Part shown: one piece after another, positions 58,020 to 60,120 of the stretch
Position numbering within the stretch: position 1 is the stretch's first letter
How the letters are laid out: each line of letters opens with the position of its first letter
DNA from: Pseudomonadota bacterium
Lineage (GTDB): Bacteria > Pseudomonadota > Gammaproteobacteria > Burkholderiales > Rhodocyclaceae
Assembly: GCA_018262095.1 (NCBI GenBank)
Contig: JAGTRW010000004.1
Coordinates: 62,001 to 126,000, forward strand
Direction: 5' to 3'
DNA length: 64,000 nucleotides
Notes under the pieces: generated by a model
The model's database searches: none
Told to the model about the DNA's origin: nothing
The model's input: only the letters and a program-made list of their open reading frames with translations
Program-made: the position numbers and the translations under genes

Positions 58020-58952
58020 ATGAATCTGGGGAATCTTTCGGCCGTTCGCCTGCTCATCGTCGGCGACGTGATGCTCGACCGTTACTGGTTCGGCGACGTT
58101 TCGCGCATTTCGCCCGAGGCGCCGGTGCCGATCGTCAAGGTCGAGCGCAGCGAGGAGCGTCCGGGCGGCGCCGCCAACGTCGCGCGCAATGCCGCGGCGC
58201 TTGGCGCCAAGGTGTCGCTGCTGGCGCTGGTCGGCAACGACGAGGCCGGCGTCACGCTCAAGCGTCTGATGCACGAGGGCGGCATCGACGCCAGCCTGCA
58301 TATCGACGACGCGGTCGATACGACCGTCAAGCTGCGCGTGATCGGCCGGCAGCAGCAGTTGCTGCGCATCGATTTCGAGACGAGTCCGTCGCATGAGGCG
58401 TTGCGCGCCAAACTTTCGGAGTTCGCGCAGCGCTTGCCCGATTGCGATGCGGTGGTTTTTTCCGACTACGGCAAGGGCGGCCTCGCGCACATCAGCGAGA
58501 TGATCGGCCTGGCGCGCGCTGCCGGCAAGATCGTGCTGGTCGATCCGAAGGGCGACGATTACGCGAGTTACGCCGGCGCGACGATCATCACGCCCAACCG
58601 CTCGGAGATGCGCGAGGTCGTCGGCCGCTGGAAGGACGATGCAGAACTCGAGCGCAAGGCCAACGCATTGCGCACTGAACTCGATCTGCAGGCGCTGCTG
58701 GTGACGCGCAGCGAGGAGGGAATGACGCTCTTTCACGCGGGCGGAACGGTGCACGAGAAGGCTGTGGCGCGCGAAGTGTTCGACGTTTCGGGCGCGGGAG
58801 ACACGGTGATCGCGACGCTGGCGGTGATGCTCGCCAATGGCGCTGATTGGGAACGGGCGATTCATGTCGCCAACGTCGCTGCCGGCGTCGTCGTCGGCAA
58901 GCTCGGCACCGCGGTCGTCACGCGCGATGAGCTCGATGTCGCACTCAACTGA
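58020..58952 (+). CDS. rfaE1: D-glycero-beta-D-manno-heptose-7-phosphate kinase
   Basis: Phosphorylates heptose-7-phosphate at C1 on the way to LPS inner-core heptose. 310 residues, a ribokinase-type fold matching the N-terminal domain of E. coli HldE only; the cytidylyltransferase domain (RfaE2) is absent and must be encoded elsewhere. Motifs: VGDVMLDRYWFGDVSRISPE, ERPGGAANVARNAAALG, DVSGAGDTVIATLAVML (GAGD phosphate-binding). Ends 9 bases before the rfaD-like leader ORF. Confidence 0.93.
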   Translation: MNLGNLSAVRLLIVGDVMLDRYWFGDVSRISPEAPVPIVKVERSEERPGGAANVARNAAALGAKVSLLALVGNDEAGVTLKRLMHEGGIDASLHIDDAVDTTVKLRVIGRQQQLLRIDFETSPSHEALRAKLSEFAQRLPDCDAVVFSDYGKGGLAHISEMIGLARAAGKIVLVDPKGDDYASYAGATIITPNRSEMREVVGRWKDDAELERKANALRTELDLQALLVTRSEEGMTLFHAGGTVHEKAVAREVFDVSGAGDTVIATLAVMLANGADWERAIHVANVAAGVVVGKLGTAVVTRDELDVALN

Positions 58953-58961
58953 GGAAAGTTC

Positions 58962-59114
58962 ATGTACACAATAGTTACTGGCGCAGCCGGTTTTAGCTCC
59001 GGCGTAACGCGCAATTGCGCATTAGCCTGCACTGAAACCGAGTGCCTCGGTTTGAACTCCGGCGTAACGCGCCGGGGCGCATTAGCCTGCACTGAAACCT
59101 GCCGGGAGATTTAA
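58962..59114 (+). pseudogene. Recoded duplicate of the rfaD start, interrupted by a tandem repeat
   Basis: A 50-codon frame with a good ribosome site (GAGGAAAG) placed right after rfaE1. Its first 11 residues, [11 protein letters not shown], equal those of rfaD at 59116, but seven of the 11 codons differ and all differences are synonymous. The frame then continues through two copies of a 60-bp repeat and stops at a TAA one base before the rfaD ATG. This is not a simple recent duplication. It looks like the 5' scrap of a diverged rfaD allele, retained upstream of the intact gene and possibly translated as a leader. Confidence 0.75.
58997..59099 (+). repeat. Two tandem copies of a 60-bp-period repeat
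   Basis: A 43-base block starting CTCCGGCGTAACGCGC and ending GCGCATTAGCCTGCACTG plus AAACC occurs at 58997-59039 and again at 59057-59099. The copies differ only in the five or so bases after CGCGC. The 17-base spacer contains GTGCCTCGG. I recall repeats of this type being dispersed in Rhodocyclales genomes; this is not verified here. Confidence 0.9.
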
Positions 59115-59115
59115 T

Positions 59116-60120
59116 ATGTATACCATCGTGACTGGAGCGGCAGGTTTTATTGGCTCCAACCTGGTCAAAGCGCTCAACGACCGCGGCGTCACCAACATCA
59201 TCGCCGTCGATAACCTGACGCGCGCCGACAAGTTCAAGAATCTGGTCGATTGCGAGATCGCCGATTACCTCGACAAAGAGGTATTCATCGAGCGCCTCAC
59301 CGCCGGCGACTTCGACGGCCAGGTCAAGGCGATTTTCCACGAAGGCGCCTGTTCGGACACCATGGAGTCCGACGGCCACTACATGATGGAGAACAACTTC
59401 CGCTATTCGCTGGCGATGCTCGACTGGTGTCTGGCGCAGAAGGTCCAGTTCCTTTACGCGTCGAGCGCGGCGACCTACGGCGGTTCCAGCGAATTTCGCG
59501 AGGAGCGGCAGTTTGAATCGCCGCTCAACGTCTATGGCTATTCGAAGTTCCTGTTTGACCAGATCGTCCGCCAGCGTTTGGCCAAGGCACAGGGGAAAAA
59601 TTCGCAGATCGTCGGCTTCCGCTACTTCAACGTTTACGGTCCGCGCGAGTCGCACAAGGGGCGCATGGCGTCGGTCGCTTTCCATCACTACAACCAGTTT
59701 CTTGCCGAGCGCAAGGTCAAGCTGTTCGAGGGCTGCGACGGCTACGGTCACGGCGAGCAGAAGCGTGATTTCGTTTACGTCGGCGACGTCGCCAAGGTCA
59801 ATCTCTACTTTCTTGACCACCCGCAGCGTTCGGGGATCTTCAACCTCGGCACCGGTCGCGCGCAGAGCTTCAACGAGCTGGCCGCGGCCAACGTCAATAG
59901 CTGCCGCGCGCTCGCCGGCGAACCGGCGCAGTCGCTCGAAGCGCTGCTCAAACAGGGCTTCATCGAGTACATCCCGTTCCCCGACGCGCTGCGCGGCAAG
60001 TACCAGAGCTTCACCCAGGCCGACCTTTCCAGACTGCGCGCCGCAGGTTATACGGACTCCTTTGCCAGCGTCGAAGAGGGCGTTGCGCACTACGTTAAAT
60101 GGTTGAATTCCCATGTATAA
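59116..60120 (+). CDS. rfaD: ADP-L-glycero-D-manno-heptose 6-epimerase
   Basis: Last step in making the activated heptose for the LPS core. 334 residues. Extended SDR with [20 protein letters not shown] (the G-x-x-G-x-x-G site), [29 protein letters not shown] (Tyr-x3-Lys), [20 protein letters not shown] and [16 protein letters not shown]. The ATG at 59116 has GGGAG upstream, provided by the end of the repeat. Its final codons overlap the cysM start by 8 bases. Confidence 0.95.

Follow-up and report, generated by a model that had tools for sequence, protein, structure and literature searches.

IMEVchUSA3, at dusA, and the ICE SXT, at prfC, restore the displaced 5' end of the gene that they enter with a diverged N-terminus (excerpts of PMC8409611). 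The ends of REP and IS200/IS605 elements are, in excerpted descriptions, small hairpins with short guides that are processed by Y1 (HuH) transposases (PMC6006769, PMC8266576, PMC3733652). Rickettsia palindromic elements, about 150 bp long, insert in frame within protein-coding genes, whose product they can alter (PMC10969869).

The start of hldD in the 64,000-nucleotide stretch of DNA analysed here (the window) shares features with each of these. We consider it probable, at roughly 0.78, that two tandem mobile units that encode no protein have inserted after the TTT of codon 11 of hldD, and that the second of them brings a replacement start, most likely that of another lineage. The observations that carry this reading are the anatomy of the units, the covariation within their hairpin, one exact empty site of a short unit, the recurrence of units at both the 5' and the 3' ends of genes, and the synonymous bias of the duplicated gene ends.

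The duplicated hldD start and its relatives

The first 11 codons of hldD are encoded twice in the window, at 58962-58994 and at 59116-59148. Seven of the 11 codons differ, each at the third position and none with a change of amino acid; the initial annotation had described this arrangement, and both copies, with their positions and base changes, were reproduced. The probability that a random single-base change leaves the amino acid unaltered is 0.28 in these codons, which places seven out of seven by drift at about 1e-4. The open reading frame listing agrees with the initial annotation that the upstream copy begins (ATG at 58962) nine bases after the end of rfaE1 at 58952, and that it stays open, as a frame of 50 codons (58962-59114), to a stop one base short of the true hldD ATG at 59116. 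The features of the junction are collected in Table 1.

Table 1. Features at the rfaE1-hldD junction, in positions of the window
Feature	Position	Strand	Basis or remark
rfaE1/hldE1, rfaE domain I kinase gene, upstream neighbour	58020..58952	+	ORF; NCBIfam TIGR02198 above cut-off
Ribosome site GAGGAA of the stranded hldD start	58951-58956	+	
Stranded native hldD start, 11 codons	58962..58994	+	Sequence; junction resembles same-genus genomes without the unit
Leader frame of 50 codons, attributed to the insertion	58962..59114	+	ORF
Left-end hairpin hp1, copy 1	58992..59038	+	R1, 67.9 bits; covariation
Unit 1 (AG..TTT), short loop, without gene cargo	58995..59053	+	Ends placed by analogy with the exact empty site
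Right-end hairpin of unit 1	59035..59053	+	Arms AAACCGAG (59035-59042) and CTCGGTTT (59046-59053)
Left-end hairpin hp1, copy 2, outer left arm partly decayed	59052..59098	+	R1, 46.5 bits
Unit 2, cargo of ribosome site, start codon and first 11 hldD codons	59054..59148	+	Boundaries by analogy
Right-end hairpin of unit 2, around the cargo	59095..59147	+	Arms AAACCTGCC (59095-59103) and GGCAGGTTT (59139-59147)
hldD, ADP-glyceromanno-heptose 6-epimerase, now starting within unit 2	59116..60120	+	TIGR02197, 448.9 bits (cut-off 274.6)

Between the two start copies lie two repeats of 47 bp each, with a period of 60 bp. For the right half of the repeat there are two matches within the window against 0.07 expected, a number reached in none of 100 shuffles, and for the left half, with three mismatches allowed, two against 0.15 expected (reached in 2 of 100 shuffles). 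The hairpin model R1, described below, recovers the first copy at E 1.6e-15 and the second at E 9e-10. In sequence, the unit 2 arm AAACCTGCC agrees with the right copy of the hldD start and not with the stranded left copy, and a ribosome site, GGGAGA at 59104-59109, precedes the ATG that lies in the cargo.

Among 22 hldD loci of the same genus, the window's own included, 20 have a plain start without an insertion, the exceptions being the window genome and another genome of the genus, G017, in which the same hairpin occupies the same place of hldD. The leader frame of G017 terminates within the hairpin. Where rfaE1 lies just upstream in same-genus loci, the junction resembles the left junction of the window. 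The initial annotation had named conservation of the 153-base leader across many genera as evidence against its own reading; among 40 relatives only G017 matches it, in architecture and not in sequence. It had also raised the possibility of a chimeric assembly, which is unlikely because tens of other genomes have the element too, and G017 has it at the same place in its hldD. At a further locus (L144, 4868-5115), identical 92-bp tandem units carry an hldD start as cargo and look like recent slippage; half a hairpin precedes these units, and the TAG of this half is the stop of an upstream rfaE1-like gene.

Anatomy of the hairpin and the unit

The units share a plan in which host NTTT is followed by AG-hairpin-CTGAAAY-X'-cargo-X-RTTT and then by host sequence again. 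In the left-end hairpin, of 47 bp, TTTAG/CTGAAA form the outer stem; an unpaired spacer separates it from an inner stem in which a purine is bulged out, and the tip is variable. X denotes the bases directly before the next RTTT and X' its inverted complement, so that the two pair; the loop between them can be as short as a few bases (commonly AAAC-TTC-GTTT) or as long as about 80. Whole units measure about 50-140 bp and encode no protein.

Across 74 hairpin sequences, 95.8% of the cells at modelled pairs are paired against 86.5% in shuffled alignments, and 116 cells carry double changes against 40.7, neither value being reached in any of 500 shuffles. At one pair, G-C and A-U exchange in the ratio 47/25. 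Two of the five covariation measures, namely the number of pairs with a double change and that of further pair types, did not exceed the shuffles of these 74 sequences, and one modelled pair fails to pair in 37 of the 74 rows. The per-pair list holds only two G-U or U-G cells, which would suit folded DNA. The invariant hairpin columns follow from the pattern used in the search and are no evidence here.

The second hairpin, of X' with X, has a mean arm of 6.4 against 3.8 when X' is shuffled, in a control that is somewhat too low since shuffling also disturbs X in short-loop units; arms of at least 7 occur in 37 of the 119 copies usable for this measure, out of 127. Rfam gave no match at the gathering score in nine loci.

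Insertion site

Conserved stretches flank a 50-bp unit in a Rhodoferax genome (G110); in its sisters G464, G450 and G093 (loci L302, L306 and L308) the same stretches are separated by a bare TTTT. The empty site reads ..GGA-TTTT-A.. and the filled site ..GGA-TTTTAG...CTGAAACTGCG-TTTT-A.., with no duplication of host sequence, although a 4-bp duplication of TTTT would look identical. From this exact empty site it follows that the unit includes its own X' and X. The unambiguous empty junction comes from one site and from a short unit without gene cargo, other sisters being too diverged at the junction to be read.

Gene ends as proposed cargo

An automatic test (score of at least 40, frame 0, open body) found a gene end repeated on both sides of the hairpin, in frame and with an open gene behind it, in 29 of 127 non-redundant copies, including a few rows (L139, L002) that are tandem or noncoding. 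Recurrent targets are ruvC, ksgA, rfbB, ftsW-murG, hldD, nuoD, pilD, and glyA-like and pheT-like starts; apart from hldD, rfaE1 and metK, these are the names that we take the genes to have from their protein sequences. Within genes the cargo is the missing gene end, either a ribosome site, start codon and first codons, or the last codons and a stop; at its smallest, at a glyA-like gene, it is a ribosome site and ATG only, followed by TTTT. Terminator-like sequence between genes also contains units, and others lie in the opposite orientation at the 3' ends of genes.

A clear 3' case is in the window genome itself, where three tandem hairpins follow metK on contig C54 (L440, 1190-1570; the partial protein scores 287 bits with TIGR01034, whose cut-off is 309) and the C-terminal end of metK is present three times. 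These copies, DKAAALRADAGL followed by a stop, differ from one another at 6, 4 and 9 codons, always synonymously and with no amino-acid change; since the search for them was made with that protein end, their identity as protein is built into the search and their codon differences are not.

Other arrangements also occur. At the ksgA start of contig C80 (L037/L002) there are three tandem units, each followed by another copy of the ksgA start, and the middle copies have decayed (MSLHVADGRF, MSQHVVDGCF). On contig C35 (L439, 1200-1360), two units lie between genes, and the cargo of the second is a terminator-like hairpin. In genome G139, one unit sits in two places (L218 and L219) at the 3' end of what we presume to be 5S rRNA, and that end is repeated on both sides.

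Recoding of the duplicated ends

We compared 28 pairs of gene ends, chosen by hand, with related rows included and with three of them (L152, L045, L061) trimmed automatically to 3-5 codons. They contain 128 synonymous and 35 nonsynonymous codon differences, and in 20 of the 28 there is at most one nonsynonymous difference (73 synonymous against 5). At a folE2-like gene, the stranded end lies past the stop codon and has 19 residues identical with ten codons different, by hand count. Older-looking pairs such as that at ruvC L059, in which the stranded copy reads GIHIAGF against GLRVTGF, show decay of the stranded copy, and this copy is thus evidently unprotected. Since unselected drift would give mostly nonsynonymous change, the divergence predates the side-by-side state; the metK and folE2-like stranded ends, which lie past a stop and yet differ synonymously only, therefore likewise indicate a divergence older than the juxtaposition. 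The proposal of the initial annotation that both copies diverged as working genes before they were brought together thus holds at hldD and extends to other genes. Pairs that are identical or nearly so also exist (nuoD L103, no difference in 11 codons; ruvC L241, two in 15).

In 41 pairs, at the positions that discriminate between the two copies, X' matches the right copy 88 times and the left 16 times, or, counted by pair, 23 against 3; several of the ruvC rows are related, and the window's own row (L001) pairs the unit 1 arm with the unit 2 copy and so counts against the trend. This agreement fits a unit that consists of X', cargo and X, and it would also be expected if the left copy alone drifts.

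Origin of the cargo

In the Gallionellaceae, ruvC was matched in 94 of 100 genomes, and of the 30 loci read, 21 have no recognisable unit and nine have one, units being accepted with at most six mismatches. The nine right copies are further from the natives than the natives are from one another, at 0.58-0.83 against a native range of 0.35-0.80 (p=0.0009, with relatedness ignored), and the gene body behind them is native-like. As a set, the left copies do not differ from the natives (p=0.39); the four that are readable and undecayed lie at 0.36-0.41, and the other five, decayed or misregistered, at 0.60-0.84. All nine right copies encode RVTGF, compared with RITGF in 18 of 21 natives. Three Gallionellaceae loci without a recognisable unit (L298, L291, L286) have the cargo-like sequence GTGACGGG and encode RVTGF; these are possible donors, or possibly genomes that kept the cargo after losing the unit.

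At hldD, cargo and in-place duplication predict the same sequence content. Against 21 natives (20 of the genus and one, G037, of the order), the window copies stand at 0.64 (left) and 0.61 (right), where the native median is 0.43 and the maximum 0.72, and those of G017 at 0.44 and 0.46 with the same median. In a Rhodoferax hldD (L181), the left copy is further from the natives than the right (0.71 and 0.59; median 0.49), and in L151 both are at 0.60 (median 0.49). The initial annotation had suggested comparing junctions among relatives to see whether the upstream copy matches the native start better than the intact gene does; the left junction does look native, but by distance neither window copy is the nearer. 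We think the cargo most likely came from the gene of another lineage, as the ruvC sequences support; at hldD the distances do not show it, neither window copy lying nearer the natives.

Distribution

A 201-bp query from the window also matches twice elsewhere in its genome, at the ksgA start of contig C80. With the R1 model at E<=1e-4, the window genome has eight copies of the hairpin: two in the window, three at ksgA, two on C35 and one on C54. At the same threshold, 20 copies were counted in the Rhodoferax genome G110 and none in G115. The repeats are thus dispersed, as the initial annotation had supposed, but recombination between them is not borne out as the mechanism. A degenerate pattern found at least 115 stretches in the named genome collection; among the matches listed (80 titles), all are betaproteobacterial or unspecific, including two metagenome-assembled genomes titled Bordetella parapertussis that may be mislabelled. 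The covariance model R1 matched 55 of 250 genomes of the order (E<=1e-5) and one of 276 in a class-wide sample with few genomes from the window's order (E<=1e-6), that one being the window's own. Candidates were scored to a maximum of 24 per genome for the order, 22 for the class sample and 150 for copy counts, and copy numbers are thus lower bounds. The viral contigs, plasmids and phages searched gave no match. No description of these units was found in the open-licence literature, absence there being weak evidence.

Search for the mobilising enzyme

No mobilising enzyme was recognised in neighbourhood searches that each covered part of the surroundings of the units. The Y1 transposase family PF01797 was not found in G000 and G059 in one set of nine genomes or in G121 and G339 in another of 12, and was found in the remaining 17 genomes searched; no unit hairpin lies beside Y1 genes in the flanks examined. 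A Y1 transposase was accordingly set aside as the mover, being undetected in four carriers and having no hairpin adjoining its genes in those flanks.

When folded, integron attC sites form a hairpin in which an unpaired spacer separates the outer stem from an inner stem that bears an extra-helical base and ends in a variable tip; the R boxes of these sites have the consensus RYYYAAC and GTTRRRY. The integron integrase model TIGR02249 scored above its cut-off in eight of 21 genomes: the carriers G000, G017, G037, G131, G139 and G339, plus G002 and G010, in which the strict hairpin pattern found no copy. We do not favour an integron integrase as the mover; the units lack these boxes. At one of the 12 integrase loci scanned (L377, 27-833, in G450), the matched part of a truncated intI is followed, at a distance of about 80 bp, by a hairpin, possibly by chance. 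On contig C77 of the window genome (L371), several attC-like repeats lie near a full-length integron integrase gene, in what looks like a chromosomal integron.

No recurrent mobile gene was found among clusters of open reading frames common to at least three loci, a survey that a rare autonomous copy could escape. A recombinase motif scan over 1.28 Mb returned no match of any kind, which suggests that the motifs were probably too strict and makes the result weak evidence. There was no preference for the lagging strand in three genomes, where 18 of 46 copies lie on the lagging template (7/22, 6/17 and 5/7; the strand skew is noisy in G236 and G297). Long units that enclose a gene were also considered. 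Matching arms, sought as far as each locus extended and to 7 kb at most, were found for two of 127 copies, 718 bp apart in L105 and 1346 bp apart in L134, and we took both to be chance matches.

Alternative explanations

The duplicated ends might instead have arisen in place, if the hairpin inserts with a long duplication of the host's own gene end and the two copies then drift. The identical or near-identical pairs at nuoD L103 and ruvC L241 speak for such a process, and the match of X' to the right copy is expected under it too where the left copy alone drifts; yet the short unit of Rhodoferax inserted without duplicating its host, and a drifting stranded copy should differ mostly by nonsynonymous changes, where most of the pairs have one at most. 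The metK ends past the stop are recoded without any change of residue, and at ruvC it is the right copies that depart from the natives, the readable and undecayed left ones being native-like, so that we give duplication in place a small chance. A variant would start from the instability of identical short direct repeats that flank a hairpin: identical copies would have been lost by precise deletion, and the survivors would be those whose live copy, held by purifying selection, had drifted synonymously. This would account for the kind of change seen in the live copy, but the stranded copy should meanwhile still collect nonsynonymous changes, of which young pairs have almost none, and between two of the stranded metK ends there are 9 codon differences, every one synonymous. 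We consider this escape from deletion a slight prospect.

The initial annotation had itself offered two explanations. One was a leader frame kept for translational coupling to hldD, to which an RNA regulator can be added. The upstream copy does have a good ribosome site and a stop one base before the hldD ATG, and few shuffles fold as well as the region does (4 of 200; z -2.35). On the other side, nearly all same-genus loci do without the insertion, the frame of G017 ends inside the hairpin, units recur between genes and at gene 3' ends, past the stop codon, and the nine loci compared with Rfam match no family there; a function of this kind is very unlikely. The other was recombination with a foreign allele of hldD. 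Of this, the upstream copy as the old native end stands, on the plain starts and similar left junctions of the genus, and a foreign start remains plausible; the scar of an allele replacement by way of dispersed repeats does not, for the repeats are the left-end hairpins of a cargo-bearing mobile unit that is found at many genes.

Proposed course of events and its implications

According to the insertion of mobile units that we prefer, a short unit and a unit bearing an hldD start would have entered hldD at the TTT of codon 11, in either order. The insertion would sever the native start, and the cargo of unit 2 would provide an in-frame replacement, because of which hldD would remain intact and its old start be stranded as a leader frame; this native start now opens 50 codons of no evident use. 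The cargo would have arrived with the unit, and its different spelling is most likely due to descent from the hldD of another lineage. The units probably pass through a folded single-stranded intermediate, and we favour a recombinase or transposase that acts in trans on the folded hairpin as what moves them. Insertions in genes would survive only where the cargo matches the gene. Transcription probably continues from rfaE1, and translation of hldD most likely begins at the cargo ATG.

More tentatively, and with the odds against it, the units may home: the pairing of X' with X beside the target TTTT would direct each unit to one gene, which the cargo then repairs, and gene-specific lineages of units would pass between species of the order as a portable insertion and repair kit, handled by an undescribed enzyme on folded single-stranded DNA.

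A mobile element without any protein could by such means enter important genes harmlessly, since it brings the piece that it breaks. This would account for the "recoded" duplicated gene ends and the tandem hairpins of Betaproteobacteria, and gene callers may misread such ends as leader frames or wrong start sites.

Comparison with known systems

The elements at dusA and prfC resemble the units in that they insert near a gene start and give the gene a new in-frame start and coding end diverged from the native one; as excerpts of PMC8409611 describe them, they differ in having their own integrase and one target gene each. The units, in contrast, measure about 50-140 bp, encode no protein, are bounded by hairpins, and occur at many genes and at both gene ends. 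Their anatomy at many genes displays the restored gene end; that this end arrives with the element we infer.

With REP and IS200/IS605 sequences, in the excerpted accounts of PMC6006769, PMC8266576 and PMC3733652, the units have in common that their hairpins are small and imperfect, that they insert next to a short fixed sequence, that a genome has several of them, and that a guide forms a short pairing with the sequence at the cleavage side. The fixed sequences differ, being GTAG/GTGG there and TTTT here, where the 5' foot of the hairpin is TTTAG and a complementary AAAY lies 3' of it; in REP sequences the guide, of the GTAG/GTGG type, is 5' of the hairpin foot. Insertion 3' of a fixed sequence without target duplication, as in IS200/IS605, was seen at the one empty site, with the reservation on TTTT given above. 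The units differ further in their gene-end cargo, in having no Y1 gene adjoining, with none detected in several carriers, and in having no lagging-strand preference.

The folded shape of integron attC sites resembles the unit hairpin, and integron integrases occur in some of the carrying genomes; in the units, however, the outer stem NTTTAG/CTGAAA departs from the R boxes, and they lie outside cassette arrays. Rickettsia palindromic elements, in the part of PMC10969869 that describes them, are likewise palindromic and inside protein-coding genes, but they change the product, whereas here the gene restarts inside the unit and the protein is unchanged. The units combine features of gene-end-restoring elements with those of REP and IS200/IS605 sequences, in a form that has no gene of its own.
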